A stretch of 64,000 nucleotides of DNA from Bryum argenteum (taxonomy: Eukaryota > Streptophyta > Bryopsida > Bryales > Bryaceae). Of this stretch, positions 17,447 to 60,501 are shown piece by piece (the first letter of the stretch is position 1; every line of letters begins with the position of its first letter). The DNA is taken from NCBI GenBank assembly GCA_037043015.1, contig CM073330.1, forward strand, positions 3,373,263 through 3,437,262, given 5' to 3'. Below the pieces are notes generated by a model that worked only from the letters and a program-made list of their open reading frames with translations, did no database searches and was not told the DNA's origin. The position numbers and the translations under genes were made by a program.

Positions 17447-17499
17447 ACGCCGAGACTTTGGGCTCTAGTATGAAGGCCGAGACATATCACTTGCCACCA

Positions 17500-26345: not shown

Positions 26346-26353
26346 GATACAAT

Positions 26354-27879: not shown

Positions 27880-28229
27880 AAGGTAATGCAGACTTCCAGA
27901 GTACAGACATCTCCGAAAAGTCGATGTGAGGTCCGCGTCAATGCCTCGAAAAGTTGTTCGATTGTTCGTGGCAGCCACCAACTGAAGGGGATAGGGGCGT
28001 CCTGCTTCTCATCCAGAGCCCTGTCCTCTTTCCTGTACCAAGATCATACTTTCATGGATGCTACTTCAACTCATCCGCTGAGAAGCTGCTTCAAACAGTT
28101 GCTACAATCACTATAAGATGGAACTCACTGCCACGGCTAAGCATTCCGGGCCTGGCAGCCAGTCACTCAGGTCGATCGATCAGTCTGTCCGATCAATTGC
28201 ACTTTCTCTGCTTCATTTTCATCACATCC
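27880..28229 (+). promoter_or_regulatory. conserved leader/promoter of the F-box family
   Basis: The sequence upstream of the ATG at 28230 is shared with copies 3 (19980-20330) and 4 (21690-21980). Shared landmarks are a CAGAGTACAGAC motif, TCCGCGTCAATGCCTCG, CTTTCCTGTACCAAGATCAT and GATCAATTGCACTTTCTCTG just before the ATG. It stays conserved between copies although the coding parts decay, consistent with duplication of whole transcription units. The promoter role is inferred. Confidence 0.5.
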
Positions 28230-29465
28230 ATGGCGTGTTTAGCTCCAGATGATGCATCAGGACCTGGGCAGACGCGCAAGTCCGAATGCTGTTCCGAAAA
28301 ATGTCTTCTGATGGAAGCTTTGTTGCTTACCAGTGTTATTTATTACTGGGAGCTGAGTCATCTCCTCATACTAGTCTATTTTTTGACATCCATTTGCTCC
28401 TCCTCTCACGTTGTGGCACCACCGAAGCAAGTCGTTCTGACTGAGCAAATCGATCAGGACGATGGTTGCCCGTCGTTGACAGCGTGCTACTTCTTCATCC
28501 AGAGTAACGTCTGGCAGTGGGCAGGATTCGATCCTTCAAGCGGCAAATGGCGAAGGCTACCTCCTCTCACGTTCCTGCCAGCCAATTGTGATCCTGATCC
28601 AGACTTGTTCAAGCAGTTTCTCATTTGTGCCAAGGACGGACTCGTGTGTATGAACTTCTCGAAGTCATCACACGAGGAGCGGTTGATCGTCTTCAATCCT
28701 TTGTCTCGACGCTGGAGGGAGCTTCCACCGCTGCTGCATAGACGGAACCCTGTTCTCATGCACATGATAGTGGATGAAGTCACACATTCATACCAGATAC
28801 TTGTAGCAGGAAGCTCCGCGGCAAGTGACGAGGAACTGTCGAGAATCACGGAGGTTTACAATTCTAAAACAGAGCAGTGGACAAGAGTAGGTGATTTGCC
28901 TGGACCAGCGTTTGCATTGAATGATTATCAAGCTGGGGTCTCCCAGAATGGCAACATCTTCTGCATCGGCTTCATGGAGCTTGACGATCAAGTCGTGAAG
29001 GGCATTCTGGGGTTCGACATGGTGAAACAAACATGGTCGACAAAGTGGACCAATCTTCCTTTGCCGAGCTCCCCCATCCTTCAACTGGTGGAAAACTATG
29101 GAGGTTTGTATCTCTTTTCGGAACATAAGAATGGCCAGTTCATTGAGCACAGGGTTGACAGAGTTGAGTGGACTGAAAAGGACGAAAGTATTACTCTTGA
29201 CTTAGTTAATGTTATTAAAGCACAAAAGATTGGTAGCTGGAGCTTAGAAGTTTTTCCAGAATTTGCATTAGTTCCATATAGCGAATCGCAATTGTGCATA
29301 TACAATACTGTCAATCATACTGGGGAGATTTACGACATTGAAGATCAAGAGAAGAGTGAAGTCTTAACGGCCTTACCTGAAGAAGGATTCAGTGGAGAAT
29401 TAAGTCTCTTCACATTGAATCCTATGTCATTTACTCTGGAGCCGAGATTTAGTACCGAGCCTTGA
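28230..29465 (+). CDS. kelch-repeat F-box-family protein, open copy lacking the F-box
   Basis: A 411-residue open frame from the ATG at 28230 (MACLAPDD, the start also used in copy 4) to TGA at 29463. From residue ~82 the kelch/beta-propeller region runs to the end: VWQWAGFDPSSGKWRRLPPL, RLIVFNPLSRRWRELPPLLH, YNSKTEQWTRVGDLPGPAFA and FMELDDQVVKGILGFDMVKQ. Family members act as substrate receptors of SCF ubiquitin ligases, the F-box binding SKP1. Here the ~110 bp that carry the F-box-like helices in copy 4 are missing between D-D-G-C-P and S-L-T-A-C-Y. Residues 28-57 form a hydrophobic stretch that arises because this part is read in a different frame from copy 4. It may be expressed but cannot act as a normal F-box protein, or it is a recent pseudogene. 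Confidence 0.75.
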   Translation: MACLAPDDASGPGQTRKSECCSEKCLLMEALLLTSVIYYWELSHLLILVYFLTSICSSSHVVAPPKQVVLTEQIDQDDGCPSLTACYFFIQSNVWQWAGFDPSSGKWRRLPPLTFLPANCDPDPDLFKQFLICAKDGLVCMNFSKSSHEERLIVFNPLSRRWRELPPLLHRRNPVLMHMIVDEVTHSYQILVAGSSAASDEELSRITEVYNSKTEQWTRVGDLPGPAFALNDYQAGVSQNGNIFCIGFMELDDQVVKGILGFDMVKQTWSTKWTNLPLPSSPILQLVENYGGLYLFSEHKNGQFIEHRVDRVEWTEKDESITLDLVNVIKAQKIGSWSLEVFPEFALVPYSESQLCIYNTVNHTGEIYDIEDQEKSEVLTALPEEGFSGELSLFTLNPMSFTLEPRFSTEP

Positions 29466-31034
29466 TTAGATAAACACCCTGTTTAAAATGTCAATAGAGT
29501 AAACTAATTGGCTCCAACATTTTAGAACACAATTCCTACTAGTGTTCTTGTCAAGGCCTCTCCCTATACTATCATTTTTAAATTCTGTGACATGACATGG
29601 TCTCAGGAACTTTCTCAGGAAAGTTCTCGCCCACCATCTTGACATAACGCTGCCATTTTTATAGAATTTTGTATGGAATAATAAACATCTTGAGCACTCA
29701 AACCACAATTTTGTAAACATGGCGGTATTTCAAGTCTATTTTGCCATATCAAACCTACATTTGCGTGCCTGCAAAAGGGCGACTAATCATAACACCACAC
29801 TATTTTAAGTATATTACCACCGCTCTGTCTGATATCACTCTTACGTAGTATCATTATTGTTTTCACCATCACCTTCTATGATAGTACCTCCAGTTCACAC
29901 CAGTTGTCTTAAAATACACATTTCTTCATACATATAGTCCCTTCGTTTTTTGTATTTCAACCACCGTAAACCCAAAATTTTCGTACAATTAAATTGAGCT
30001 TACTCACTTTTTCAAGTTAAAATCAACTCTACCTTCTGTCGATCTGTATTCCAGGCTTCAGTTCTAAGCTCGAGAGTCCAATCGCTGGTAGTTACACTTG
30101 CAACGGGGTAATTATGAGCAGAAAGATTCGAGTGTCTGATGCAAGCCCCACAACGTATACTTCGGCTGCTGAGTAGTTGTAATCTTTGTTCGATAATGGC
30201 TCATTCTAAATTTGTGAACTGCCTGGAAGTGTTTTACGGCACTATCAGTGAGGCCCTACATGGCCGGTGAGTTTTTCGAATCCTCTGAAATATCTCGTAG
30301 TTCAAACGCTACGTTGGCAACGACGAAGCCCCTTTTCAAGAGCCCTTCTTGGCATGAACAAAGCTCAATGTATACAAGCATTCACAATTCTGTTAAAATG
30401 AAAAATACCATGTGCCACTTTGTGTACAATAACGGCCAATGTACCATTTCGGTTGCATAGTTGGTCATGCTTCCACAGTGACACCTCGAAACACGCTTCT
30501 TTTGTAATACACCCCTCTTTCTAATCAATTTGAACCCCCGAAAAGTGTCATCTCTGCTGAATATTGCCATTAAGGTTTCAGTGCTGATTCTATTGCTCCT
30601 ATACGCATATATGTAATTGTATCATTCTTGAGGAATGTGTCACAAAATCAAATTATCTGCTTGCAGTGATAATCAGCCGAGATGCCTACTCGCGAAGAGT
30701 GAAAGAAGCAGACTGGATAGGTACGGTCCTAGATTCTCTCCGTACACATCCGACATTCGAGGTCCTGCTGTCGATCCAGCCACTCGTACGAAACCAAGAT
30801 TTTCGTCCGAATCTATCTCAAGCTACTCATGTTGTTGTCTGCAGTAGGGCTGTAGGGGTCTAAGGCTCCTGAGATCCATACTTTTAGTCCAGACATAGTG
30901 ATGGGGCTTGTAGAAGTTGTGAATTTGGAAGTTCACAATTTCGAAACATTGGTGATGCCAACAATTATAAACTAGTCCACAACTCTGAAAGCGTAAAAGC
31001 GTAGCCCACAGCCTCTCTGTTTTGTAAATTTTAA
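29466..31034. other. intergenic; no supported gene
   Basis: Only short frames. One at 30666-30863 follows an acceptor-like ttgcag and encodes SRDAYSRRVKEADWIGTVLD, which I do not recognise; it could be an exon fragment. The rest shows nothing. Confidence 0.45.
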
Positions 31035-41614: not shown

Positions 41615-43158
41615 TAGGTGCAGATGGTTGGTGCAGAGAGAGGTGGCAATACATGCAGTCTCCAATACTTATTACCCACAACTTGACAAATAGTGTTGGA
41701 AAGGTAGTGGGAGTAAGCACATTGTTTATCATTTCACATTGAATACATTCTTTAGTGTAGTTGATTATCTTTGGATTACAAGGCTGAATAATTTTAGTAA
41801 AAAAAACTAGTGGAAGTTGTCGCTCACTATCTTATATGTATGCCACTTGTCTTTCTCTTGTATATTGCGACCACTCCAACTCATTTGAGAATATGGACCT
41901 ACTCCACATGATTCATAAGCAAACTCTTCAAAAAGGCTATGATTCTTAATTTTTCTTTGATGAGTTAAGAGTAGTTGAGAGTAATTCATGTGACAAACCT
42001 TTGTGACACTCTTTTAAAAAGGTTTGTCCATACATGCAAAGCAACAAAGAGAATATAGTGTCATGATAAAAAACCTCTTGTAGAGATTTCTTCCCAACAA
42101 CAATGCGGACATGACGCGCACTTAAAGGAAGTTTGTTGTAGGACTACAATATAAATGATTAAGTCATTGCTCACAAGTCATACTCAACAGTTTTTCTATA
42201 TATATAAAATCAATAGCTTGAATTAATCCCCAACCCCTAAGAGCCCAATCGACCATTTATGGTTGATTCCGAATTCTAAGGATCTGTAGCCAACTAATAA
42301 AAGAATCTTTTTGAAGCTTTTATATTTCCACAAGAGTTTGGTGAGTTGAGAACAAGATCCAATTTACATAGCCTCACTTGGATTCATACATTGTTCACAA
42401 TTAGCCTTCAAACAATTTTCTTAGTGTTAGAAAACTTGCTATTTTAGGAAACTGGTGGTGTTCCTATTAGGTCAATGATGGCATTTGTCTACATTATCAT
42501 ATAGTATGTGAATTTAGTCAACCATATCAATTTCCAATTACAAACTACATGATAGCTCCACTAAGGATGCCGTGCTTCATGTTTTAGCACTCTCCCTTGT
42601 GAATGGTAGAGTGAAAATCCTTGCTTAACCCCTGAAGGGCTCCATATATAGTTTGTATATAGCTTCACAATTTAACAATGTCATGTACTTATTTCAAACA
42701 TTATAACGGGTCAAATAAGGGCACCATCTTAGAAACACATGTCAGTCTACCTTCAAAAAATCATAGTAAATTGATGCACTAAAATTGCTCACTCTGTGCA
42801 AAGATTTCCTAATCTAAAATTTGAGCCATTATGGAGCACTTTACCTTACATGAGTATCCAGAGCAAAAGAACATACAAACGAACATTTTGACATACACGA
42901 AGATCACTTACCGTAAAAGAGGACATTTGCGTTAAGCGACAAACCATAAAGACATTGAGCATGAAGGACTTCCTCCATAATTACGGAAGAAAAGCAAGTG
43001 GAAACACAAATTGTCACAAATACTTTCTAATCTACTGCAGATTACGAAATAAGCCCGCCCTAACCCTGTTGATGGGAGCCTCCATTTTACCAAAAACACG
43101 GAAGCTCAAAGAAACCTAATCACATCACCTGAAAATAATCAAATCAACTGCACTAGCT

Positions 43159-44200
43159 CTACTTGAGAAGCGATCTTGCAAAATGCTCTTTCGCAGTTGC
43201 AAAAGCTTGCGATATCGTCTGCACACAAACGAAGTTATCAGCCATTGACAAGGAATGAAACAATCAACACTTTCAAGGCTCATGTATCTCCCCAACTATA
43301 CCTGTTCTGAAAGTGGAACATCGGCATCAGCACCTCGCATTGCTACCCTGCTCGCAACAACGTTCGCATCCGACTCCAAGATAATGCTACACATTTCACG
43401 ACACCGGTATCGTCAGAGTAAACATCAAAGCCTGGTGTCAATATTCATTCAACAACAGGATCATCAGAGTAAACACCAAAGCCTGATATTATCAATTATT
43501 CAACATCAGTAGTATCAGAGTAAACACCAAAGCTTGGTATTAAAATTCGTCCAAAAGGCACATACCCGCCATCTACTATCTCGTCCAAGCAAAGCAGAAC
43601 AAGGTCGAGATTCTCCAGCACGCTCGTCTTCTCCACATTGTCTCTGCACATCAATGAAATCCATCAGTCTATGCACACTCCAAACCTATTTAGCAAGAAT
43701 AAAAAGTTGAACACAAACCTCAAAAGCAAGGCAACGGCATCGAAGAACCCTTGCAAGACTGTTGCGAGAATGAGCTCGTTCTCGTCTTCACCGCCCGTGA
43801 CGTAGAAATGCAGGTCCGAAACAAACTTGTAGACCACGATGTATCCATCAAATAATCCTATCTCAGCTGCAAATTAAGGGCAACAGTTGTGTTAAGACAA
43901 GAATAATTCAACGTGAAACCCTAGGTCCGGACTGTGGACTGTACCTTCCGAACGAGCACTTGTGCGTTGCGTCTTGGTGAACACCGATTTCTCATACGCT
44001 AATTTCGCAGAGAGAGTGGGCCAATCATCGGAAAAGTACTTGACAGCGACACGCTTCCCCTCGGAATCTAAGAGTAAGACGTTCTTAATCAACGGCGTGG
44101 AAATCTGCAAGAATCAAAAGTGCGATCGATTGTCAAAGTGTAGCCACTAACACTCGATCCGCGCAGGAATGGAAACCCTAAGCACTTCACTTACATCCAT
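43159..44200 (-). CDS. coatomer subunit zeta (COPI coat), left copy
   Basis: Six exons on the minus strand with GT-AG borders: 44200-44195 (ATG GAT), 44104-43945, 43866-43719, 43643-43566, 43386-43302 and 43218-43159. They give a 178-residue protein, the usual length of plant zeta-COP. It begins [20 protein letters not shown] and includes [71 protein letters not shown], and ends [11 protein letters not shown]. Zeta is the small longin-fold subunit of the F-subcomplex of COPI, which coats Golgi-to-ER vesicles. No break is seen. The first coding exon of only six bases is notable. A second, apparently identical copy lies 14.7 kb downstream. Confidence 0.95.
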
Positions 44201-44444
44201 TGCAGATCGCGAAACAAATGAAGAAATCGCAAGTTCTTGTAGCAATGCGGATTTGCGAAGGATTAAAAACGCCGATGGCTGTTGCGAATGTAGAGATCCG
44301 ATTTACTCAATGCAGAATGAATTCTCTCTGTGTCTCTCTCTCAGAATGGATTCAGAAGATGTTGGCGACCGGTGGATTCCTTTACTGTCTAGCAGATGGT
44401 AGCGATGTTTTCTCCTTGTCCACTGGATGCGGAGGGTTCGTGAA

Positions 44445-44600
44445 GTGAACGAGCGTGGGATGGAGTGAACGAGCGTGGGATGGAGTGAACGAGCGTGGGA
44501 TGGAGTGAACGAACGGGAACGGACTGGACGAACGAGAACCAATGAAAACGAAAGAAACGAACGATGACTAACGAGAACGAACGATAACGAACGATAACGA
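44445..44600. repeat. 20-bp tandem repeats upstream of the coatomer-zeta gene
   Basis: Three perfect copies and a partial copy of GTGAACGAGCGTGGGATGGA (44445-44504 and following), then shorter AACGAACGAT-type repeats to about 44600. They lie 250-400 bp upstream of the minus-strand ATG, in the promoter or leader, and are present in both block copies. Confidence 0.9.
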
Positions 44601-44709
44601 AGCAGACAAAGAGGAGAATATTGGAGTAAATAAGATCGAGGTAAATAAATAAATGAGAACACCACTTCCCATTTTGAGATTTGGGATAATTAAATGCATG
44701 TTTGACTTA

Positions 44710-45726
44710 AGGTAGCGACACCCATAACCGTCTCAGTAAGCAAATATGGTTGGTTACAACCACCATGGAAGCTTGAAAAAAATATCTACAGATTAGCAAT
44801 TGGGAGTGGAAAATATTTGCTTTGAGAGATGAGGTTTTGTGACCAGCCTAAATTTTTAAGAATATTTCAAAGTACAAAATGAACATACTTATATGCTTAT
44901 CCATAGGTGGAGCTAAAAATGACAACCACTGAAGTGTTTGTTGTCCTGTAGCGGCTTAAAACCAAGAAAGATAGTTCCTATAAAAGTTAAACGGGCAATT
45001 GAAATATGTCCCACCGTGGTTCAAAATTCCAAGCTGTGGATAAGCAAGAACTACCAATAGAGGAAGAAAATGCCGGCCCCCGCAATCCCTTCACCAAGAC
45101 TACTAATGAATAAACCAACAAAGGCACACCTAACACCGCCCACCAAAGACAGAGAAGTGTGTCGTTTCTCCCCTTGGGATGCACCTTTAATCCCTAAACG
45201 ACCACAGCCAACGATTCGGTTTTTACTGTCAAGACAAAAAAATAAATTACAGTCAACTTCAAATGTTATGATCTCACATCTAGTGATGATCCAATGGTTA
45301 AAAATTTTCACACTACTACCCATGGTAGTCTACTTCAAGATTCTACGGTTAAATTTATCAAAAATTTCCAAAAATATTGGACGTACCCCCATTAGTACAT
45401 AGTGGACAATGTTGGGATTTCAAGCTCCCAAAACATCGTGGATCTTTAGGGGTTAAACCAGTCATTAGTCCCCTAAATTTGCCATGCAAATCACTCCAAA
45501 CCAACCGCTCAAACACCTCTCAATATTATTTCATTAAAACACTATGCACTTTACAACATGACATACAACATCCATTTCCAACCAATCGGCACTAAAGCAC
45601 GCTTTAATGTACACCCATTACCGTCCCTTTTTCACAACAATCAGCTATGGGTCTGAAAAGGTCAGCAATAGGTACAATTATAGGTCACGCCAATGGGGAC
45701 ACGGATGCTTATGGGTGTCGCTACCT
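44710..45726. mobile_element. 1017-bp MITE with TA target duplication, left copy
   Basis: Termini AGGTAGCGACACCCATAA at the left and TTATGGGTGTCGCTACCT at the right are perfect inverted repeats of 18 bp, flanked by TA at 44708-44709 and 45727-45728. No transposase frame. TA target and terminal repeats suggest the Tc1/mariner superfamily, but the ends do not match the Tc1 element at 40018. The same element is at 59416-60434. Confidence 0.8.
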
Positions 45727-45793
45727 TAGGGCCGGTATTTCGACACATGACATACACTTTCCAAATTTACCTATGTAACTTCACCTAGTTTAC

Positions 45794-46579
45794 TGTTATC
45801 CGCCTCGGTACCGCGGGTATTATTACCGAAGACCAACACCCCGGGGAAGACCAGGAATTAAACAGCCACGGGGCTCAAGTTCGAGGCATTGACGAGATGA
45901 CCAAGAGGATCGAGAGCAGGGGCGCAGGGAGTTAAGGCCGAAGAACAGCGCAAGAATTAGGTTTTATTATAAATAGAGGAGGATTTACACAAGAGGTAGC
46001 TCTCTGTAGTGCACGAATGTCGTGATAGCCACAACGCATGACTTCGATCTCTGTACCCTTGGGCATTCACAATTCAATGCAAACAGGACTCAGTCCAATT
46101 CCTCTCTACCTCTATCGTCATTCTCACTCCTCTCCCCTTCTTCCCTATTTCTAAACTCCTACCTCCTAAGTCTTGCAATCGCCCGTGGCACCGTGGAAAT
46201 CTGTGTTGGGACAGTTGTGTCTCGGCATACGCTACGTGGTCAAGGAGATCACCCCTCGTGGAGTTTCCCCTCCGGCGAACCTACATTGCAGAGAACACAC
46301 ACACACACACACGCCGCGGCCGTGGAGTCGCACTCAGAAGAGAACACCGAAAAGCTGTAACCCTGGGACTCGGGACCGACAGAGTACTCCCTGAGTTCCC
46401 TGGATCGACTTACCCCTGGCCTAATCACTTAATGATTACGGCCACCAGTCAACGACATACCCGGACCCGAGGCTAACTGTGGTAAAAACCCCGAGCCCCG
46501 GTTATTGCCCAGTCTGTGGACCCGTCCAGCCCCCGTTACTCATACCTCGGACACCTCCATCCTATAACCCCGGCTAACA
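45794..46579 (+). repeat. 5' LTR of Ty3/gypsy element A
   Basis: 786 bp with termini TGTTA...TAACA. It starts exactly where the left duplicated block ends (after GTTTAC). A TATA-like TTATAAATAG lies at 45968. A primer-binding-site-like TGGCGACCATGCTGGGG follows at 46583. No matching 3' LTR exists in the window, because the element is truncated at 56455. Confidence 0.8.
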
Positions 46580-46670
46580 TTTTGGCGACCATGCTGGGGA
46601 TGGAGTGCTGAGGTAGAAAAAGAAAAAGAGAGAAAGAGATCTCCGGCCACGAGCCTGTAGGGAGGAAAAG

Positions 46671-47284
46671 ATGCCCCCAAGAAGAAATGCCGCGGAAAGA
46701 GCCGTGAAAAATGTAGTTGCAGATATGGAAGAAATCGTGCAACAAGAAAACGAGACCAAAGAGTTGTTGCAATGGATGAAGCAACAGATGACGGATCTAG
46801 CTGCTCAAAACGAGGCCACGAATGCTAAGCTAGAATTGCTCAGCCTTAAATACCAGGACATCCAAGGCAATGTAGCCCCAGAGGTTATTGCTTCCACGCC
46901 CAGGAGTGTGGAAGAACCAGCCGAAGCAGCAAGGTCTGCAACCATACCCAGGGGGAACAATGCCGCGGCCAGTGCAAGCACATCGGGAATGCCCTCACCG
47001 GCACCAGTAGCGTTATCCACAGGGATACCTCCTGTGTCACACAACCCCGGAAGCCTTGACACCCAGGCCAAGTTACCCAAGATACCTTACCTCGTGTTTG
47101 ATGAGTCTGGGGACCCGGACTGGCACATCAGGAGGTTTAAAGTGATAGCACGTACGAACGGCATTTTTCATGCCACGGACCTACAAAACATCTTTGGTAC
47201 GACGCTCCAAGGGAATCATATTAACTGGTACATTGACTTCGAATCCGAACACAACAATGCCAGTTGGGAAGATATGGAGCGTAG
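46671..47284 (+). pseudogene. gag of element A, 5' part
   Basis: Starts MPPRRNAAERAVKNVVADME with a coiled-coil-like N-terminus, then a Pro/Ala/Ser linker. It enters the retrotransposon gag domain (IPYLVFDESGDPDWHIRRFK, then WYIDFESEHNNASWEDMERS). At 47285 retrotransposon B is inserted; the frame resumes at 53309 after the second copy of the 5-bp target CGTAG. Gag forms the particle core of the element. Confidence 0.85.
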
Positions 47285-47690
47285 TGTTAGGGACATAGGC
47301 TCTGGAACCTTCTAGAAGGAAGTCTTTAGAAGTCTCTGGAACCTTCTAGAAAGAAAGTCTCTAGAACCTTCTAGAAGGAAGTCTTTAGAACCTTCTAGAA
47401 GCTAGTCTCTGGAACCTTCTAGAATCTAGTCTCTGGAACCTTCTAGAAGCATCCTAGCTGGTAGAAGTTCTAGAAGCATCCTAGCTGGTAGAAGTTCTAG
47501 AAGCTTCTTGGATTCTAGAAGTATATATAGGAGTCGAGGGTGAAGAGTTCTTCAGTCTCGACAACGCATCTCTTGGAGCTCTAGCTCACCTCTCTTGGTG
47601 TTATTCGTGTACTCTTCTTGTTAATCCAAACTCTTGTCAGTTTTCGTTAGTTTCCAGATATTCTTGTCATCTGTTTTCGTGTCCCTGACA
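47285..47690 (+). repeat. 5' LTR of element B
   Basis: 406 bp. The U3 part contains a dense array of GGAACCTTCTAGAA units and further TTCTAGAA motifs. A TATA box (GTATATATAGG) is at 47521. Differs from the 3' LTR by G versus T near 47401 and C versus T near 47629. Confidence 0.95.
47305..47448 (+). promoter_or_regulatory. array of six perfect heat-shock elements in the LTR
   Basis: GAAccTTCtaGAA, a perfect three-unit heat-shock element (nGAAnnTTCnnGAAn), occurs at 47305-47317, 47339-47351, 47364-47376, 47388-47400, 47412-47424 and 47436-47448. Additional TTCtaGAA half arrays lie up to 47520, directly before the TATA box. In plants heat-shock factors bind this pattern, and the Arabidopsis Copia element ONSEN is heat-activated through LTR HSEs. 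The spacing and number here predict heat induction; this is inference from motif identity. Confidence 0.8.
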
Positions 47691-47880
47691 GTTTGTCGAG
47701 ACTACCTTATCACAGATATCAAAGCTAGTCCCTTCTTGTTGGAGAGAGTGGATTACCCCTCTTCTTGGAGTCTTGAGGCGTTTTAGAGGTTGCGGAGTAC
47801 CCTCCTTTAAACCAATGTTGTTCTCTTGTCAAATTTTTTTCTTTTCATTCGTAGATTTGGTCAAAGATCAAGACGTCAAT

Positions 47881-49040
47881 ATGGCTGAAAATTTGGAATC
47901 CAAATTGGACGCCATCATGAATGCTCTTGCTACGTTATCACAGAGACAAGCAGAGATAGAAGGAGCCATGGCAAGACTTCACAATGATGGAGCATCCGGG
48001 ATAACATCATCCAGGATTCACCAGTCTCAAGCTACTACAGCGGAGGAGGCGACTACACCTTTAGTTCAACAAAACCCAATGATTCAACAACGGAAGGAGC
48101 CTAGAGTTAGTCTTCCTGACAAGTTCGACGGAACGCGTTCCAAGTTTCGAGGTTTTGTCAACCAAATCAGGTTGATAACAGTTTTACAGCCTGAACGATA
48201 TCCGACGGAGGAAGCGCGTGTTGGACTTGTTGGAACTCGCTACGCGACAAGCTCTCTCATCGTGGTTTGCCCCCTTGTTCGAGAAACGATCGCCAATTCT
48301 GAGCAACTTTGAGACGTTCTTGGAAGCGTTTGAAGAAGCATTTGGCGAACATGACAAGGTTCGATGGGCTACAACAAAGATCCGATCACTACGACAAGGG
48401 ACGCGCTCTGCATCGCTCTCACGATCGGATTTCGCACAATCAAGCTAGTGACATCAATCAAGGCGAAGAAGCATTGGTGAGTCGGTTTTATTGGGGTTTG
48501 AGGATGATGTGAAGGACCTACTTTTATCCCTTCCCGATCCGCAAACGCTCAACGGCTTTCCATTAGCCAAGTTGTAAGTCGACAACCGTTTATTCCAAAT
48601 CGTCAAGACAAGTGACCAAAAAATACCAAACGAATCGCTACACCACGAGTATGTTGGCAAACAATTTGAGTTCTCATTCGGAGGCAGAAGCCATGCAAAT
48701 CGACGCGGCGAGTGTCAGAGCTCTTACTCCAGAAGAGAAAAAACGGCGTATGGAAGAAGGACTCTGTTTTTGTCTGCTGAGAGAAGAAGGCCACAAGGTT
48801 GGAACTTGCCCCAAGAAGCAGAACCGGAGCATTGTTAAGACTAGGAGTGCGGTGATCCCGGAAAACGACGATGCCCGTGCCACAAGAGGAACCGTGCGGG
48901 CCGATTCAATGCCGCGACAACAATCAGGTTCCTCTTTCTCTCCCCAACCCGCCAATTGTTTTACAATTCCCTTGTCTCTTGGTCCTCAAAAACACAAAAC
49001 TTTAGCGCTATTAGATTCGGGAGCATCTACTTGTTTTTAG
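47881..49040 (+). pseudogene. gag of element B, frame-broken
   Basis: The ATG at 47881 opens MAENLESKLDAIMNALATLS, a coiled-coil start, then KEPRVSLPDKFDGTRSKFRG, the usual entry to the gag domain. The frame is lost at about 48220 and shifts again by 48600. A zinc-knuckle remnant (REEGHKVGTCPKK) is at 48780-48830. The protease active-site motif LALLDSGAST is at about 49000, followed by a stop at 49038. The whole is recognisable as gag and the beginning of protease but cannot be translated as one protein. Confidence 0.85.
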
Positions 49041-52000
49041 ATGAAGAATTTGCTAGCGCCACGAGATTCGTCTAGTATGTAAATCCAAGCCTGTTCATGT
49101 AGAGGTGATAGATGGACGACCTTTATTGTCCTGGCAATGTCACCCATGAATCGATCGCACCTATAGAGGTGGCGTTTAAGGACCATAGTAGTTACGTTGT
49201 TTTTAATGTCATTAGAACCCCGTCAAACCCTGTCATCCTAGGTCTCTCCTGGTTAGAACAACATAACCCTACCATAGATTGGAAGTTGCGGAAAATAACT
49301 TTTTCCAAAGAACATTCCAAGAGCCAACCTAGTAGACATCCCAAGATAGGGAAACCATTGTTTATTGGAGCAAGGGCGTTCGTACGATCATCCAAAGAAG
49401 GAGCACCCTTCGTCATCTATGCAGCCCCAACTAGCACGGAGAAGAGTTCGACGGCAAGCATACCAGAGCAATACAAGGATTTTGAGGACGTGTTTGAGAA
49501 GAAGAACGCGGACATGCTACCGAGCATCGGCCATACGATGCCGCTAGACCACCTGCTAGAAGGAAAGACAACCGCCTTTTGGTCCAATCTACAATCTCTC
49601 TCAAACGGAGTTAGCGGAGCTGCGAAAATACATTGACGAGAATCTAGCGAAGAACTTCATTCGTCATTCAAAGTCGCCAGCTGGGGCACCGATCTTGTTC
49701 GTAAAGAAGAAGGATGGCTCCTTGCGAATGTGCGTGGACTATCGAGGCCTCAACAAGGTAACTAAGAAAAATCGTTCACAAGCTTCCCTCGATCTCTAGT
49801 CTCTTGGAGCGGCTCGGGCGTGCAAAGATCTTTACAAAATTGATCCGGGGAGCTTACAACCTCGTACGGATCAAGGAAGGAGATGAGTGGAAGACAGCGT
49901 TCCGTACAAGGTATGGCCATTTTTAATATAATGTCATGCCTTTTGGCCTTACCAATGCCCCGGCTGTTTTCCAACACATGATGAATGACATCTTTCGGGA
50001 GTACCTTGACGACTTTGTTGTCATCTATCTGGATGACATCCTGATATTTTCCAAAAACGAAGAGGAGCACAAGAAGCACGTTCGTTTAGTCCTCGAGAAA
50101 CTACGAGAACGAGGACTCTACGCCAAGATGGAGAAGTGCCTATTCCACCAAACCGAGATGGAGTTTCTAGGGTTCATTGCGACTACAGACGGCTTGAAGA
50201 TGGACCCCAAGAAGGTGGAAGCAATTGTATCGCAGGAGGTTCGAAGACGGTTAGAGACGTCTGATGTTTTCTTGGATTTGCTAACTTCTATCGGATCTTC
50301 ATCAAGAATTATTCTCGGTCATTTCTCTCCACTCACCCGATTGACGTGTAAGGACAAGCTAGAATGGGGACCTCAAGCCGAACGAGCATTTCAAGATCTC
50401 AAGACGGCGTTTACTACGGCTCCAAATCTCTGCTACACCCGACTTTGCAAAGGCCTTCTATTTGGAGACCGATGCTTGATTTTGCTTTGGAGGAGCCGTT
50501 TTCGAGATGGCCGCAGACGGAGGCTTCATCCAGTTGCGTTTTATTCTCGGAAGTTCTCTGCCGCGGAAATTAACTACGAAATGCACGATAAGGAACTCCT
50601 TGCCATAGTAGATTCCTTCCAAGAGTGGAGACACTTTCTCGGCGGCATCACAGATCCCGGTGACCGTTTACACGGATCACAAGAATTTGGAGTACTTCAT
50701 GTCGGCTCGAATCCTGAATCGACGTCTAGCTCGGTGGAATATGTCGTTGTCGCGATTTGATTTTGTTATCACCTATCGGCCTGGGAAGCAGCAAGGACTA
50801 TCGGATGCATTATCGAGGAGATCGTATCTCACACCTAAGACTGGAGAAGAAGCATTTGATCAACAATGCACCACATTGTTGAAACCGGAGCATTTTAAAT
50901 TTGCTTATTTCTTTGTCGTGTCAATTGATGCGGACTTCCTCGACTGCGACGCACCGTAAACAACCAAAGATTCAGTAGCTCTTGAGATCGAGAAGCGTGC
51001 CGATAATGACAAGTTGAGTGGAGGAGATCTTTTGTATTTTGAAGAGCGACTATATATTCCAAAGGGACCAACACGACTTCGAGTTCTCCAATCTCGCCAC
51101 GACTTTCCAGCAGCATGACATTTTGGATACAACAAGACATTGGAGCTTATTTCGCGAGATTTTTGGTGCCCTCAAATGTGGAAGGATGCGAAGGAGTTTG
51201 TCCTCTCTTGTGATATCTGTTCAAGGTCAAAGAACCCTCGGCATCGCCCCTATGGACTTCTGCAGCCATTGCCTATTCCGCATCGACCACGGTCTTGATT
51301 TCCATGGACTTCATTCTGGGACCCGCCTTCAAACTCGTTCGACAAAGATCTTTGTTGTGGTGGATCGGCTTACAAAGATGGCGCATTTTATTCCTTGCGA
51401 AGAAGACATCATCAAGCGAGGGACACAAAGAAGACTCTTTCGATAATGTATATCGTTATCATGGCTTGCCAGATGACATCGTGTCGGATCGAGGAACTCA
51501 GTTCGTCTCCAAATTCTGGAGATCTCTTTTCGAGATTTTGAAGGTGGATATCAAGCTTTCTTCAGCCTTTCATCCTCAAACTGATGGTCAGACGGAACGG
51601 GTAAATCAAGTCTTGGAGCAGTATCTACGCTGCACCATCAACTACCAGCAAGACGATTGGGCCGAATATCTACCGTTTGCCGAGTTTGCCTACAACAACA
51701 CCCTTCATGCGTCGTCTCAACAAACACCGTTTTTTGCCAATTATGGATACCATCCGAAACTTGATTTGTTAAATCCAGTGGCCAATAATAACCCGGCAGC
51801 AGAAGGCTTTGTGAGACAGCTATCGGAGCTTCAAGCTACGTTGCGACTTCAATTACAAACTGCCCAAGACTCTTACAAGGCGTCCGCAGATAAATTTCGG
51901 AATAAGGCACCCACTTTCAAGATTGGAGATAAGGTATGGCTGCTTCGACGAAACATCAAAACCAAGCGGCCATGTGACAAGTTGGACTATCGAAGATTGG

Positions 52001-52362
52001 GGCCGTTTGTCATCGAGAAGCAAATCAATCTAGTGGCGTACCGGCTAGAGCTACCAACTGCTATGAAGGTACATCCAGTCTTACACGTTTCTTTGTTGGA
52101 ACCTTATCGAGAGTCTACTTTTCCTGGAAGAGTGCAAAGTCCGCCACCTAGTGTCGAAATCGAGAACCATGAGGAATACGAGGTAGATAAGATACTAGAT
52201 TTACGGCGAAGATGGGGAAAATTAGAATACCTCGTGCATTGGAGCGGCTACGATATTAATGAACGAACATGGGAGGATGCCGAAAATCTCGCAAACGCGC
52301 CAGAGAAGGTACAGGAGTTTCATCAACGATATCCTCGTAAACCCAAGCCGGTTCGGCGATAG
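49041..52362 (+). pseudogene. pol of element B: protease end, RT, RNase H, integrase, chromodomain
   Basis: In several frames: protease end (VILGLSWLEQHNPTIDW), RT start ([20 protein letters not shown]), a TAA at about 49925 where the family has Glu in a G-H-F-x-Y-N-V stretch, RT core MPFGLTNAPAVFQHMMN and IYLDDILIFS, RNase H (HPVAFYSRKFSAAEINYEMH), the tail [19 protein letters not shown], integrase (zinc finger remnants at 51090-51230; GLPDDIVSDRGTQFVSKFW; FHPQTDGQTERVNQVLEQYL) and a chromodomain at about 52170-52290 (EYEVDKILDLRRRWGKLEYL, then VHWSGYDINERTWED). The last frame (51295-52362) is open for 355 codons. At least five frame changes inactivate the polyprotein. Confidence 0.92.
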
Positions 52363-52493
52363 CTTCTTTCTGACGCTTGACCACCCAGGAACATAAAAAG
52401 GAGGGAGTGCACCACAAAAATTCATATTCGATGTAGTTATTTTGTCTAAGATTGAGTAGAAATTTTCTAGTAGCGATAGTTTAGTCTTCTGAT

Positions 52494-52841
52494 ATGGATA
52501 ATCAAAAGATAGAAAGTATGCCAGTTATGTCATCTCAACCAGCAAACTCACGAAGACGACCTCGAGATGAAGAACCGCCTGTACCACGACAACGACGAAG
52601 GATACCAAGCAACCGATCGCTGGTGATTGTATTCGAAATGGAGCCTGCGTTCAATGGTGTGCCAGAAGGCGTGTTTGCAGGACAATTTCACAATGAAGAC
52701 ACGGAGGTTCATGCTTGGTCGGAAGTGGAAGGCGTGGGCCACTACCGTTGGCTTCAAGGACCAATGAACCACTTACCTCGTGAACAACAATTGGAGTTCA
52801 TTGCAGACGTGATGCGGCAGATCTTCATTTTTCTGCGTTAG
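52494..52841 (+). CDS. extra ORF of element B (115 aa, unknown)
   Basis: An uninterrupted frame from ATG 52494 to TAG 52839-52841, on the sense strand between pol and the polypurine tract. It starts MDNQKIESMPVMSSQPANSR, is followed by a basic patch (RQRRRIPSNR) that may be a nuclear signal, then an acidic, aromatic C-terminal half (EVHAWSEVEGVGHYRWLQGP). No family recognised. Chromoviruses normally end after integrase/chromodomain, so an additional ORF is uncommon. That it is open while gag-pol is broken may be chance or may mean it is maintained. Confidence 0.55.
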   Translation: MDNQKIESMPVMSSQPANSRRRPRDEEPPVPRQRRRIPSNRSLVIVFEMEPAFNGVPEGVFAGQFHNEDTEVHAWSEVEGVGHYRWLQGPMNHLPREQQLEFIADVMRQIFIFLR

Positions 52842-52897
52842 TATTAACTCACAACAACATTGCTTCTCGGAGACCTCGAAGCTAAAGGAGGGGGTGA

Positions 52898-53303
52898 TGT
52901 TAGGGACATAGGCTCTGGAACCTTCTAGAAGGAAGTCTTTAGAAGTCTCTGGAACCTTCTAGAAAGAAAGTCTCTAGAACCTTCTAGAAGGAAGTCTTTA
53001 GAACCTTCTAGAATCTAGTCTCTGGAACCTTCTAGAATCTAGTCTCTGGAACCTTCTAGAAGCATCCTAGCTGGTAGAAGTTCTAGAAGCATCCTAGCTG
53101 GTAGAAGTTCTAGAAGCTTCTTGGATTCTAGAAGTATATATAGGAGTCGAGGGTGAAGAGTTCTTCAGTCTCGACAACGCATCTCTTGGAGCTCTAGCTC
53201 ACCTCTCTTGGTGTTATTCGTGTACTCTTCTTGTTAATCTAAACTCTTGTCAGTTTTCGTTAGTTTCCAGATATTCTTGTCATCTGTTTTCGTGTCCCTG
53301 ACA
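52898..53303 (+). repeat. 3' LTR of element B
   Basis: 406 bp, nearly identical to 47285-47690, with the same six heat-shock elements at 52918-53061 and TATA box at 53134. It is preceded by the polypurine tract and followed by target duplication CGTAG (53304-53308). Confidence 0.95.
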
Positions 53304-54401
53304 CGTAGTTTTTTACATAAGTTTAGAAAACTCAAAACAAGTTCGGAAGTCCTCCGAGCGTTGGGATCGATTACGCAATCTACAAACGAGCCGGTGGATA
53401 AGTTTTATGACAAATTTAAGCAGTTGGCCGACAAACTTAGCCAACGACCCGAGGAGGAATACATGTGTGAATGGTTTAAAAAGGGCTTACTTCCATGGAT
53501 ACAGCAGGGTATTGTTATCCGTGGAGTAAAAACACTGCCAGACATCCTCTCCGCGGCAAATGACATCAGCCGGGAACTTATGGCGCTGAAACAAACGCAG
53601 ACACCCATACTACCCTTGCCCTCGGCACGACAAGATGCTCAGATGGCACCCCCGTTATGTGAGACATGCGGAAAAACACACCACGGGAGATGTTGGTACT
53701 CTGCCAATGCCACCCCGCCCCAGGATCACAGGCGACCTAGGAATACCACGGCCTCGGTATACCCCGAGGAGATTAACGTGGATGCGTTTCAACCTGGGCG
53801 CTCTGACGCATGCTGGGAATGCGGGGGTTTGGACCATCGGCGAAGCCAGTGTCCCATATTCAAACAGAAGTGGACCCAAGGTCGAAACAATAGTTCCCCG
53901 GGGCAGCCAAACACCAATCCCGCGGCCCATAGAAGAGGAGGGGTAACATTAACTGAAGTCCACGGGCCAGAAACAAATGTGTCCATGATCTCGGCCGCCG
54001 CGGTGACTACCCGGTCAAAAGCAGTTCCCTCAAACCACGTGGTAGAACACCGGAAGCTATTCCCGGAACATCACTGGGAACGACTACATAACATGAGGAC
54101 GGATCTCCAGAAGGACCTGGAAACCACACCTACAGATCAAAAGTGTGCCACGGATCACACCCGGCAGCAAATTCTAGACACTACCAACGTAACCATCACC
54201 CTAGCAAAACTGGTACAAATCAGCCCTGAGTTACAACAATACCTACAAAGGGCTGTGATAGCGGAAACAAAACCCGACCCCACGTTCGTGGAAGTTAACG
54301 CCGCCACGATAGACCCAAACGCTGCAGTAATCCACGTGCAATTAGGAGGACAGACACTGACCAACGTCCTCGTCGAGTTGTCGATGGGGGGTCCGGCGTG
54401 A
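53304..54401 (+). pseudogene. gag of element A, 3' part
   Basis: After the target duplication the gag frame of element A continues (FLHKFRKLKTSSEVLRALGS, DKFYDKFKQLADKLSQRPEE). It holds two zinc-knuckle-like motifs (CETCGKTHHGRC; CWECGGLDHRRSQC, the latter a clean C-x2-C-x4-H-x4-C) and enters the protease region. The frame ends at 54399-54401, where the protease motif D-G-G-S-G-V-N-V-M appears in the next frame. A GTCGAGTT/GTCGATGG near-repeat at 54373-54388 suggests an 8-base insertion caused the break. Confidence 0.85.
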
Positions 54402-56455
54402 ATGTAATGAGTAACCACGTTCGACAGGCACTAGGACTACCACAACCCAGGAGTGCCCGCTTTATTTTACGCATGGCTAACGACGCCCCCGTCACACCCC
54501 TGGGAATTCTCACCATGGTGGGGATTACGATACACGGGGTATCAACACCAGCGACGCTCGTGGTAATCGAGATGCCTCAAAACAGCGGGTTTCCGGTAAT
54601 CCTGGGAAGACCTTGGTTACGAGACATGCAGGCAATACACAACTGGACCAAAAATCAGATTCACATTCAACGCCACAGGAGAACCGTGGTAATACCCGTG
54701 GATAGTTGCCTAACTCGTGCCAAGATAAGTCAGATCCGGACTTCCACAGGGACCGATTGGCCAAAAGAATTCACAAACGAACAAGAGGCTCTAATACTCC
54801 ACGTTCACCCCAGCTTAATACCCGTGGCCGAGATCCACTTAGCTAGTTTAATACAAGAAGAAAAAATAGATATTCCCGAACACTTCACTCAAGAGATAGC
54901 CGGGGACGTGGTGGTAAATGCTATCCCTGCAAAGGAAGCACTATGTCATGAGACCATCACAGGATGGACGCACGGGGCCAAGGAAAGGGTGCAGCTGGTC
55001 AACCTCGGAATGACAAAAGAACCCAAATACATCAAAATCAACACAGATGCGCCCCCAGCCATCAAGCTGGCGGCCATCGCCTTGTTCCACGAATACAAAG
55101 ACATATTCGCCTGGAACCACGAGGACCTGAAAGGTATTCCCAATGCCCTAGCCGAACATACCATTGACCTCGTCCCCGGAGCAACCCCAGTGCAGCAACG
55201 ACGATACAGAATGAACCCGAATTACGCCGCTCGGGTCAAAGCTGAATTGGACAAACTTCTCCACGCCAAGTTCATTTCCCCCGTGGATGCAGCGCCTTGG
55301 CTCTCTCCCATGGTTATTATCCCCAAGAAAAACGGCACGTTGCGCATCTGCGTAGATTTCCGAAAACTCAACGCAGCAACAAAAAAGGATCACTATCCAT
55401 TACCGTACATGGAGGAGATCATCGATGAGGTTGCCGGACATGAGATGTACTCGTTCCTCGATTGTTTCTCGGGGTATTACCAAGTAGCCATGGCCGAGCA
55501 AGATAAAGGAAAGACAGCTTTTTCCACGGAATGGGGACCTTATCAATTCGAGAGAATGCCATTTGGGGCCAAAAACGCACCCATGACATTCCAACGCGTT
55601 ATGGAATTAATTTTCAGACCGTACCTCAAACAATTTTTCCGAATTTACCTGGACGATGGAACCGTTTACGGCAAAATGAAGGACCACGTCTCACACCGCA
55701 GGCAAATTTTCCACGCATGCAGAACCAACGGGGTGAGTCTCAACGCTGACAAATGCATGTTCCTGTACTTCGCCGGGGTCATCTTGGGGTACATTGTTTG
55801 CAAGCACAGCAAACTCCCCGACCCCGAGAAAATCAAGGACATCATGGACATGACACCACCACTGAATCAAAAGGGCGTACAACGGCTCCTGGGCTTAGCA
55901 CAGTTCAACCGAATCTACATCGAAAAATTGGCACACATCACCGCCCCGATCACCGCACTGAACCATGCCAAGTATACGTACCCACGGGACCTGACGCCTT
56001 AGGCACAAGCAGCCCTGGAGAAGATAAAAAATGCGTATTCAAACGCACCTATTCTCATTGCTCCAGACTGGTCTAAGCCGTTCCACGTCCACACAGATGC
56101 ATCCAACATTGCCGTGGGGGTAATGTTAGCACAGAACATAAATGGCAAACACGATCAACCCGTGGCGAACGCTAGCCGACTACTCAACCAAGCCGAGCGA
56201 AATTACTCCACCACAGAACGCGAGGCCCTGGCAATGATTTACGCTGTTAAAAAATTTAGACATTACCTCCTCGAAAAGAAATTCAGTTTCATGGTCGATC
56301 ACCACAGCTTGTCCTACCTTGTTAACCAAACCTTGGTCACGGGGAGGGTGGCCCGGTGGATCATGATACTACTCGAATACGACTTCGAGGTGGTATACGT
56401 CCCTGGGAAAAGGCACATCATGGCCGACTACCTGTCCAGGGATACCTTTAGTGTA
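54398..56455 (+). pseudogene. pol of element A: protease, RT, RNase H; truncated before integrase
   Basis: Protease continues with FPVILGRPWLRDMQAIHNW. RT has ISPVDAAPWLSPMVIIPKKN, GTLRICVDFRKLNAATKKDH, MPFGAKNAPMTFQRVME and the catalytic IYLDDGTVYG. RNase H has FHVHTDASNIAVGVMLAQ and NYSTTEREALAMIYAVKKFR. A TAG at 56000-56002 replaces an expected Trp. The frame ends YVPGKRHIMADYLSRDTF at about 56450 and runs straight into the right copy of the duplicated block, so integrase, 3' LTR and target duplication are missing. No chromodomain is seen, so it belongs to a different gypsy clade from element B. Confidence 0.92.
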
Positions 56456-57864
56456 TCTTTAGTGTAGTTGATTATCTTTGGATTACAAGGCTGAATAATT
56501 TTAGTAAAAAAAACTAGTGGAAGTTGTCGCTCACTATCTTATATGTATGCCACTTGTCTTTCTCTTGTATATTGCGACCACTCCAACTCATTTGAGAATA
56601 TGGACCTACTCCACATGATTCATAAGCAAACTCTTCAAAAAGGCTATGATTCTTAATTTTTCTTTGATGAGTTAAGAGTAGTTGAGAGTAATTCATGTGA
56701 CAAACCTTTGTGACACTCTTTTAAAAAGGTTTGTCCATACATGCAAAGCAACAAAGAGAATATAGTGTCATGATAAAAAACCTCTTGTAGAGATTTCTTC
56801 CCAACAACAATGCGGACATGACGCGCACTTAAAGGAAGTTTGTTGTAGGACTACAATATAAATGATTAAGTCATTGCTCACAAGTCATACTCAACAGTTT
56901 TTCTATATATATAAAATCAATAGCTTGAATTAATCCCCAACCCCTAAGAGCCCAATCGACCATTTATGGTTGATTCCGAATTCTAAGGATCTGTAGCCAA
57001 CTAATAAAAGAATCTTTTGAAGCTTTTATATTTCCACAAGAGTTTGGTGAGTTGAGAACAAGATCCAATTTACATAGCCTCACTTGGATTCATACATTGT
57101 TCACAATTAGCCTTCAAACAATTTTCTTAGTGTTAGAAAACTTGCTATTTTAGGAAACTGGTGGTGTTCCTATTAGGTCAATGATGGCATTTGTCTACAT
57201 TATCATATAGTATGTGAATTTAGTCAACCATATCAATTTCCAATTACAAACTACATGATAGCTCCACTAAGGATGCCGTGCTTCATGTTTTAGCACTCTC
57301 CCTTGTGAATGGTAGAGTGAAAATCCTTGCTTAACCCCTGAAGGGCTCCATATATAGTTTGTATATAGCTTCACAATTTAACAATGTCATGTACTTATTT
57401 CAAACATTATAACGGGTCAAATAAGGGCACCATCTTAGAAACACATGTCAGTCTACCTTCAAAAAATCATAGTAAATTGATGCACTAAAATTGCTCACTC
57501 TGTGCAAAGATTTCCTAATCTAAAATTTGAGCCATTATGGAGCACTTTACCTTACATGAGTATCCAGAGCAAAAGAACATACAAACGAACATTTTGACAT
57601 ACACGAAGATCACTTACCGTAAAAGAGGACATTTGCGTTAAGCGACAAACCATAAAGACATTGAGCATGAAGGACTTCCTCCATAATTACGGAAGAAAAG
57701 CAAGTGGAAACACAAATTGTCACAAATACTTTCTAATCTACTGCAGATTACGAAATAAGCCCGCCCTAACCCTGTTGATGGGAGCCTCCATTTTACCAAA
57801 AACACGGAAGCTCAAAGAAACCTAATCACATCACCTGAAAATAATCAAATCAACTGCACTAGCT

Positions 57865-58906
57865 CTACTTGAGAAGCGATCTTGCAAAATGCTCTTTCGC
57901 AGTTGCAAAAGCTTGCGATATCGTCTGCACACAAACGAAGTTATCAGCCATTGACAAGGAATGAAACAATCAACACTTTCAAGGCTCATGTATCTCCCCA
58001 ACTATACCTGTTCTGAAAGTGGAACATCGGCATCAGCACCTCGCATTGCTACCCTGCTCGCAACAACGTTCGCATCCGACTCCAAGATAATGCTACACAT
58101 TTCACGACACCGGTATCGTCAGAGTAAACATCAAAGCCTGGTGTCAATATTCATTCAACAACAGGATCATCAGAGTAAACACCAAAGCCTGATATTATCA
58201 ATTATTCAACATCAGTAGTATCAGAGTAAACACCAAAGCTTGGTATTAAAATTCGTCCAAAAGGCACATACCCGCCATCTACTATCTCGTCCAAGCAAAG
58301 CAGAACAAGGTCGAGATTCTCCAGCACGCTCGTCTTCTCCACATTGTCTCTGCACATCAATGAAATCCATCAGTCTATGCACACTCCAAACCTATTTAGC
58401 AAGAATAAAAAGTTGAACACAAACCTCAAAAGCAAGGCAACGGCATCGAAGAACCCTTGCAAGACTGTTGCGAGAATGAGCTCGTTCTCGTCTTCACCGC
58501 CCGTGACGTAGAAATGCAGGTCCGAAACAAACTTGTAGACCACGATGTATCCATCAAATAATCCTATCTCAGCTGCAAATTAAGGGCAACAGTTGTGTTA
58601 AGACAAGAATAATTCAACGTGAAACCCTAGGTCCGGACTGTGGACTGTACCTTCCGAACGAGCACTTGTGCGTTGCGTCTTGGTGAACACCGATTTCTCA
58701 TACGCTAATTTCGCAGAGAGAGTGGGCCAATCATCGGAAAAGTACTTGACAGCGACACGCTTCCCCTCGGAATCTAAGAGTAAGACGTTCTTAATCAACG
58801 GCGTGGAAATCTGCAAGAATCAAAAGTGCGATCGATTGTCAAAGTGTAGCCACTAACACTCGATCCGCGCAGGAATGGAAACCCTAAGCACTTCACTTAC
58901 ATCCAT
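57865..58906 (-). CDS. coatomer subunit zeta (COPI coat), right copy
   Basis: Same six-exon structure as the left copy, shifted by 14706 bp: 58906-58901, 58810-58651, 58572-58425, 58349-58272, 58092-58008 and 57924-57865. The 178-residue product is the same by reading. Both splice sites and frame are intact. If the duplication is real, the genome has two intact genes for this COPI subunit; if it is an assembly artefact, there is one. Confidence 0.93.
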
Positions 58907-59415
58907 TGCAGATCGCGAAACAAATGAAGAAATCGCAAGTTCTTGTAGCAATGCGGATTTGCGAAGGATTAAAAACGCCGATGGCTGTTGCGAATGTAGA
59001 GATCCGATTTACTCAATGCAGAATGAATTCTCTCTGTGTCTCTCTCTCAGAATGGATTCAGAAGATGTTGGCGACCGGTGGATTCCTTTACTGTCTAGCA
59101 GATGGTAGCGATGTTTTCTCCTTGTCCACTGGATGCGGAGGGTTCGTGAAGTGAACGAGCGTGGGATGGAGTGAACGAGCGTGGGATGGAGTGAACGAGC
59201 GTGGGATGGAGTGAACGAACGGGAACGGACTGGACGAACGAGAACCAATGAAAACGAAAGAAACGAACGATGACTAACGAGAACGAACGATAACGAACGA
59301 TAACGAAGCAGACAAAGAGGAGAATATTGGAGTAAATAAGATCGAGGTAAATAAATAAATGAGAACACCACTTCCCATTTTGAGATTTGGGATAATTAAA
59401 TGCATGTTTGACTTA

Positions 59416-60434
59416 AGGTAGCGACACCCATAACCGTCTCAGTAAGCAAATATGGTTGGTTACAACCACCATGGAAGCTTGAAAAAAATATCTACAGATT
59501 AGCAATTGGGAGTGGAAAATATTTGCTTTGAGAGATGAGGTTTTGTGACCAGCCTAAATTTTTAAGAATATTTCAAAGTACAAAATGAACATACTTATAT
59601 GCTTATCCATAGGTGGAGCTAAAAATGACAACCACTGAAGTGTTTGTTGTCCTGTAGCGGCTTAAAACCAAGAAAGATAGTTCCTATAAAAGTTAAACGG
59701 GCAATTGAAATATGTCCCACCGTGGTTCAAAATTCCAAGCTGTGGATAAGCAAGAACTACCAATAGAGGAAGAAAATGCTGGCCCCTGCAATCCCTTCAC
59801 CAAGCACTACTAATGAATAAACCAACAGTCAAGGCACCTAACACCGCCCACCAAAGACAGAGAAGTGTGTCGTTTCTCCCCTTGGGATGCACCTTTAATC
59901 CCTAAACGACCACAGCCAACGATTCGGTTTTTACTGTCAAGACAAAAAAATAAATTACAGTCAACTTCAAATGTTATGATCTCACATCTAGTGATGATCC
60001 AATGGTTAAAAATTTTCACACTACTACCCATGGTAGTCTACTTCAAGATTCTACGGTTAAATTTATCAAAAATTTCCAAAAATATTGGACGTACCCCCAT
60101 TAGTACATAGTGGACAATGTTGGGATTTCAAGCTCCCAAAACATCGTGGATCTTTAGGGGTTAAACCAGTCATTAGTCCCCTAAATTTGCCATGCAAATC
60201 ACTCCAAACCAACCGCTCAAACACCTCTCAATATTATTTCATTAAAACACTATGCACTTTACAACATGACATACAACATCCATTTCCAACCAATCGGCAC
60301 TAAAGCACGCTTTAATGTACACCCATTACCGTCCCTTTTTCACAACAATCAGCTATGGGTCTGAAAAGGTCAGCAATAGGTACAATTATAGGTCACGCCA
60401 ATGGGGACACGGATGCTTATGGGTGTCGCTACCT
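59416..60434. mobile_element. 1019-bp MITE with TA target duplication, right copy
   Basis: Same terminal repeats (AGGTAGCGACACCCATAA) and TA duplication as 44710-45726. It contains the small patch of differences between the two blocks (around 59780-59843). Confidence 0.8.
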
Positions 60435-60501
60435 TAGGGCCGGTATTTCGACACATGACATACACTTTCCAAATTTACCTATGTAACTTCACCTAGTTTA
60501 C

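Follow-up and report, generated by a model that had tools for sequence, protein, structure and literature searches.

We identified a dense array of perfect heat-shock elements (HSEs) ahead of the TATA box in both LTRs of a chromodomain-bearing Ty3/gypsy retrotransposon from the moss Bryum argenteum. The U3 array and TATA box together are predicted to form a promoter that is switched on by heat-shock factors (HSFs) under heat or another HSF-activating stress, a reading to which we give a probability of about 0.65. The element lies in a 64,000-nucleotide stretch of contig CM073330.1 (positions 3,373,263 to 3,437,262 of assembly GCA_037043015.1), which we refer to as the window and to which coordinates refer unless another contig is named.

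The heat-shock element array

The 5' LTR (47285..47690, plus strand) is 406 bp long and runs from TGTTAGGGACA to TGTCCCTGACA. It contains six perfect three-unit HSEs, GAAccTTCtaGAA, in repeat units of 24-34 bp at 47305..47448 on the plus strand, and the 3' LTR contains six more at 52918..53061, also on the plus strand. A preliminary description of this DNA had reported both sets, and a pattern count agrees with it: GAACCTTCTAGAA has 12 matches in the window, six in each of these intervals, where 0.01 are expected. The motif type is that of the standard heat-shock element (PMC5059998). Matches to GAANNTTCNNGAA number 15 in the window against 1.21 expected, and none of 100 shuffles (0/100) reached 15 or more, but these window figures overstate the surprise because the six HSEs are head-to-tail copies of one amplified site and are not independent. 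Duplication of one unit has thus at least partly kept the six alike.

The preliminary description had further noted TTCtaGAA motifs continuing up to a TATA box at 47521. The motifs are there, but those that remain before the TATA box are two-unit sites, mostly within 27-bp repeat units that each carry one (47441..47504, plus strand), and a seventh perfect three-unit HSE in each LTR had been missed. It was found as a minus-strand pattern match at 47495..47507 in the 5' LTR and at 53108..53120 in the 3' LTR, in each case immediately upstream of the TATA box TATATATA. The TATA box, as read from the sequence, is at 47522..47529 on the plus strand, one position later than had been given, and its distance from the array is plausible for a promoter.

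Structure and classification of the element

The element is flanked by 5-bp target site duplications, CGTAG, at 47280..47284 and 53304..53308. The 3' LTR (52898..53303, plus strand, 406 bp) differs from the 5' LTR by two substitutions, one of which exchanges one spacer variant for another, each of them common in these arrays, and is abutted by a purine-rich tract at 52884..52897 (plus strand), a putative PPT read from the sequence. The coding region is broken across reading frames. Its plus-strand pieces include RT and RNase H (49927..50757) and an integrase piece (51214-52359) with a chromodomain at its end (52177..52329). Domain matches identified RT, RNase H, a Tf2-1-type SH3 (PF24626, E 5.4e-18) and the chromodomain (PF00385, E 4.7e-16), so the HSE pattern and the domains together show, as had been proposed, that a gypsy element with a chromodomain carries perfect HSEs in its LTR. 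With a gypsy-type RT/RNase H and a chromodomain, the element does not belong to Ty1/copia, the group of the ONSEN family (COPIA78). In an alignment, the chromodomain has Y, W and Y at what we take to be the aromatic-cage positions.

The chromodomain, aromatic cage, self-priming (see below) and moss host are traits described for Tcn1-type elements, and by these traits we classify the element as a probable Tcn1-type chromovirus. An aromatic cage is found in the chromodomain of 95% of the Tcn1 clade (PMC6317226). Tcn1-clade chromoviruses of mosses and clubmosses (PMC6317226, PMC2864245) have in common with our element an aromatic-cage-like chromodomain, self-priming, a non-seed plant host and a similar LTR length, whereas the available text of these two papers contains no HSE or heat term ("heat" has 0 occurrences) to set beside the HSE arrays described here. 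In a scan of IMG/VR, the primer-site pattern was unmatched and the RT piece had no confirmed relative.

Predicted self-priming and RNA start

The predicted RNA start and self-primer, AGTCTCGACAA, is at 47554..47564 on the plus strand, 32 nt past the start of the TATA box. Its exact 11-nt complement, the predicted self-primer binding site, is at 47693..47703 (plus strand) and starts 2 nt past the end of the 5' LTR. An LTR with GTTT behind it is taken as a 5' LTR; in the 18 such copies of this family, the complement is 11/11 in 14 and 9-10/11 in the other four. We call the window's family lineage A, and two related lineages, B and C, are described below. The complement is 12-13 nt long in two elements of lineage B, while in two elements of lineage C each of its sides has three changes relative to lineage A (ACTCTCTTCAA), yet pairing is kept over 13 nt; in all four of these elements it lies 30-31 nt from the TATA box. 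Because the two sides covary between lineages, self-priming is supported, and the predicted RNA start is thereby fixed downstream of the HSE array.

We also considered priming by tRNA-Met. A word in the leader, recognized by eye and presumably tRNA-Met-like, is inside the leader and away from the LTR edge, and the self-complement fits better. Self-priming is known from most elements of the Tcn1 clade, which has been found only in mosses and clubmosses (Neumann et al., PMC6317226), and for SM-Tcn1 no primer site was found (Novikova et al., PMC2864245).

A recent insertion of a broken copy

The near-identical LTRs had been taken to fit recent mobilisation. This is correct for the insertion, judging from the two substitutions in 406 bp, the target duplications and the insertion junction, but the copy itself is coding-dead. 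It is inserted in the gag gene, which it splits, of a larger LTR element at 41749-60501. The LTRs of this outer element (41749-45793 and 56456-60501) are ~4.05 kb long and 99.8% identical, their alignment of 4,049 columns having 2 mismatches and 4 gap openings, and an RT piece is located just before its 3' LTR. When 40 matches to a 161-bp junction sequence were scored (of 267 candidates), the window alone spanned the junction, and the other 39 ended at query positions 117-124, the insertion point being 120. The inner insertion is therefore younger than the outer element. Composite transposition of the two together, which was considered since the inner LTRs (2/406) look older than the outer ones, is not supported, as 39/40 scored matches end at or within a few bases of the insertion point.

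Scored over 4,539 positions against 46 loci, some of which belong to one element, the window copy shows 78 substitutions and 27 indels that are private to it. These changes can hardly all postdate the insertion, and the simplest reading is that the copy was probably already broken and was mobilised in trans; assembly error in coding repeats is an alternative to real decay of the indel-rich coding regions. The same contrast is seen in 5 of 14 paired copies, which have 0-5 substitutions between their LTRs versus 37-46 private substitutions and 6-12 private indels in ~980 nt of RT. The RT pieces at L077, L079, L081, L083 and L084 combine near-identical LTRs with an RT full of private changes and may represent either dead copies mobilised recently or assembly errors. 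Long open frames are kept in several relatives.

HSEs within the family and between paired LTRs

A search of the genome (258.8 Mb in 25 contigs) with the window LTR returned at least 44 LTR matches among the best 40 of 410 candidates scored. We examined 40 LTR copies, comprising 38 further loci and the two LTRs of the window, and each of them (40/40) has between 3 and 12 perfect three-unit HSEs when both phases are counted. Recency and duplication explain part of this retention. These copies provided 253 units with at most two mismatches, 205 of them perfect, and we compared mutations in the GAA/TTC cores (28 events, 3.1 per site) with those in the linkers (16 events, 4.0 per site). The cores are not protected relative to the linkers (P = 0.42), which counts against selection. 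The result speaks against a strong within-family signal and is what would be expected if most copies are dead.

Fifteen LTR pairs were available, with 5-bp target duplications that are exact in 12 and have one mismatch in 3, so each pair is very likely one insertion; the LTRs of one pair, L039/L026, are ~12.7 kb apart. Within a pair, LTR length is unequal in 11/15 elements, by 27-96 bp, and HSE count is unequal in 8/15 (for example 8 and 12, 4 and 8, or 6 and 3). Over the TATA-R-U5 part (168-171 bp), the same 15 pairs have 0-7 substitutions, and 13/15 are gap-free. One lineage-B pair has zero substitutions, yet one 10-bp gap. The change in array length probably arose by slippage or template switching as the LTRs were copied, and later slippage or conversion could have produced it instead. 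We infer that it is mostly during LTR copying that an array gains or loses complete HSE units, which would make HSE dose an evolvable setting, and elements with unequal HSE numbers in their two LTRs constitute a natural dose series.

Related lineages and an HSE-free clade

From 113 matches we picked relatives at 59-87% identity and took 20 slices of the sequence that follows their chromodomains. At least one perfect three-unit HSE is present in 15/20 of these slices, with other linkers than in the window's family; the remaining 5/20 have none, and in these no complete LTR was recognised. Lineage B has mixed linkers (ta, tg and cg) and 5-9 contiguous alternating units, and lineage C has mostly TTCcgGAA, in runs of 3-5 units. 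We tested 18 U3s, namely 5 of the 40 lineage-A copies, 9 of 11 lineage-B slices (two were dropped for lack of a U3 edge, and for two of the nine the other LTR of the element is also in the set) and 4 lineage-C slices. In each of the 18, none of 300 dinucleotide shuffles matched the observed number of runs of at least three units. Between lineages the U3s align in patches only, mostly at 66-75% identity. When pairs of trimers with gaps of 0-8 were ranked for what A, B and C U3s have in common, TTC-2-GAA came first in one trio and GAA-2-TTC in three others, in which TTC-2-GAA ranked third, sixth and sixth. The preliminary description had named relatives with repeats that are not kept at HSE spacing as one observation that would count against it; we looked for this and it did not occur, GAA and TTC being kept at HSE spacing in the relatives.

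The next clade, at 46-48% identity, was represented by six elements, two of them close copies, with open frames of 644-1380 aa, one of which has an internal stop. The three-unit HSE is absent from the slices of these elements, which span the inferred 3' LTR and the region beyond. Separately, at L117 (G000:C6:11280744-11281744) a lineage-C LTR follows the chromodomain of one element, and downstream of this LTR come a primer site and the RT of another element, an arrangement resembling tandem LTRs.

HSE patterns across the genome

Across the genome, GAACCTTCTAGAA has 437 + 383 matches versus 17 + 10 for the reversed pattern. Among the first 100 matches listed, many are in pairs ~2.1 kb apart, and four such paired places (L138-L141) belong to a second LTR family, with LTRs of ~96-211 bp that run from TGTTGTGA to CACAACA and an element length of ~2.1-2.4 kb. 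Each LTR of this family has one perfect HSE, and one copy has five contiguous units. There is no self-priming complement (the longest is 5-6 nt), and in a BLAST comparison with the window element just one of the four places matches, through an 18-nt stretch at the HSE. Two of its translated pieces gave matches to the copia gag-pre-integrase domain that fall under the curated cut-off, and by this resemblance the family is probably copia-derived. A 22-mer marker for it occurs at 109 places in the genome (control 0). Triplets of TTCTAGAA are also common, with 533 per strand against 8 for the control, but counting TTCTAGAA alone misleads because it is also contained in an unrelated 32-bp minisatellite that has no three-unit HSE (G000:C1:7078994-7079544, C1:20295479-20295614 and C2:1375387-1375522).

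Comparison with known heat-responsive elements

The most familiar heat-responsive LTRs are those of copia elements, and seed-plant copia elements are also the main source of what is known about stress-driven retrotransposition in plants. In Brassicaceae copia elements, heat-responsive elements with three (3P) or four (4P) units are associated with heat induction of up to ~100-fold and ~1000-fold, respectively (PMC5059998). ONSEN/COPIA78, COPIA37, TERESTRA and ROMANIAT5 are like our element in having LTR HSEs of at least three units; their HSEs have been gained and lost by duplication and mutation, and their heat induction tracks HSE strength (PMC5059998). These are Ty1/copia elements of seed plants with a measured heat response, whereas the element described here is a Ty3/gypsy element with a chromodomain from a moss, has tandem arrays with as many as 12 perfect HSEs in an LTR and is known from its sequence.

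The array had been described as apparently new. Heat-responsive gypsy elements are already in print, as are putative HSEs in fungal LTRs, so the novelty is narrower than had been suggested; in the open-access literature searched we came across no HSE array described for a chromovirus from a moss or any other plant. PHRE1 and PHRE2 of moso bamboo are Ty3/gypsy elements with a 5' LTR that acts as a promoter more active in heat, and the words heat shock element, HSE and HSF are absent from the available text (PMC8656106). RLG1 and RLG2 of Physcomitrium patens are moss gypsy elements, as ours is; RLG2 is induced by heat and ABA, while RLG1, which has a chromodomain, is reported to be repressed by heat shock (PMC7466625). 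In Cryptococcus, TCN3 (Ty3/gypsy) and TCN12 are mobilised at 37 C and have putative LTR HSEs, two in TCN3 and one in TCN12 (PMC12810828). They differ from the present case in being fungal and in having one or two putative sites and no tandem array, and "chromodomain" is absent from the available text of that paper. Cer1 of C. elegans is temperature-dependent, and its repression at 25 C did not require HSF-1 (PMC3315495). For mosses, "heat shock element" is absent from the available text of a paper on the heat response of Niphotrichum (PMC10619864). We conclude that the strategy of a heat-responsive LTR is known and that what is new is its HSE-array variant in a self-priming moss chromovirus, with differently built arrays in related lineages.

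Predicted function of the array and alternative explanations

In the mechanism that we propose, HSF trimers would bind the three-unit HSEs and recruit transcription at the TATA box at 47522. The RNA would start near 47554, and its first 11 nt would anneal to the binding site that begins 2 nt past the LTR, priming reverse transcription without a tRNA. The chromodomain would then steer insertion towards heterochromatin. HSF binding, heat induction and selection behind HSE retention are each what we would predict from the motifs and their distribution. HSEs far beyond chance, their presence in all 40 LTR copies, the differently built arrays, the HSE-free next clade and the unrelated HSE family all favour an HSF-driven element, and the unprotected cores, the tandem copies, the 5/20 slices without an HSE, the heat repression of RLG1 and the TTCTAGAA minisatellite count against one. 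On balance, HSF-driven and probably heat-induced transcription is the function best supported by these sequence comparisons.

HSFs may bind the array but respond to a signal other than heat; in this often dried and rewetted moss, the element would then be driven by desiccation, rehydration, ABA or a developmental HSF. We regard this as rather unlikely, although motifs alone do not tell which HSF or stress acts, and in P. patens the gypsy element RLG2 responds to both heat and ABA, and RLG1 has developmental expression and is repressed by heat (PMC7466625). An argument against this explanation, though a weak one, is that the motif is a standard heat-shock element (PMC5059998).

It is improbable that the arrays are neutral minisatellites, in which an HSE-like unit that arose in U3 by chance was multiplied by slippage and is alike through recent amplification, with no binding by HSFs. 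The units are indeed tandem, LTR lengths are unequal in 11/15 elements, mutations within the family hit cores and linkers alike, and a TTCTAGAA minisatellite without an HSE exists elsewhere in the genome. However, the differently built arrays have just the GAA/TTC core and the 5-bp spacing in common, the next clade has no HSE, and an unrelated LTR family has the same site. A role of the repeats in RNA (U3 being at the RNA 3' end) or as DNA hairpins, for example in dimerisation or 3' end formation rather than protein binding, seems very improbable, since although the U3 RNA fold beats shuffles (z = -2.81, with 1/200 shuffles as good), tandem palindromes fold anyway, and the linkers of GAAccTTC and TTCtgGAA, both frequent, are not self-complementary.

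Taking HSF-driven transcription as the preferred reading, we tentatively suggest a broader picture, in which this clade of moss chromoviruses uses the host HSF as a standing driver, with arrays built from different units in at least three lineages, HSF dose acting as a fast-evolving dial and a copia-derived family having converged on the same site. One genome with dense and varied HSE arrays, an HSE-free next clade and a second HSE family would allow testing whether HSE dose sets activity, and the same moss system would allow testing whether episodes of heat or drying drive genome change in mosses.

Other features of the window

At ~17000-29500, the window contains repeated and partly inverted F-box/kelch-like gene copies, pairs of which are 60-98% alike. 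The named matches of the neighbouring F-box/kelch gene are from mosses: Ceratodon purpureus, with up to 62% identity over 65% of the query, and also Physcomitrium and Sphagnum. On the minus strand at 845-2830 there are ORFs with DUF4216 and DUF4218, which we take to be those of plant CACTA-type transposons.
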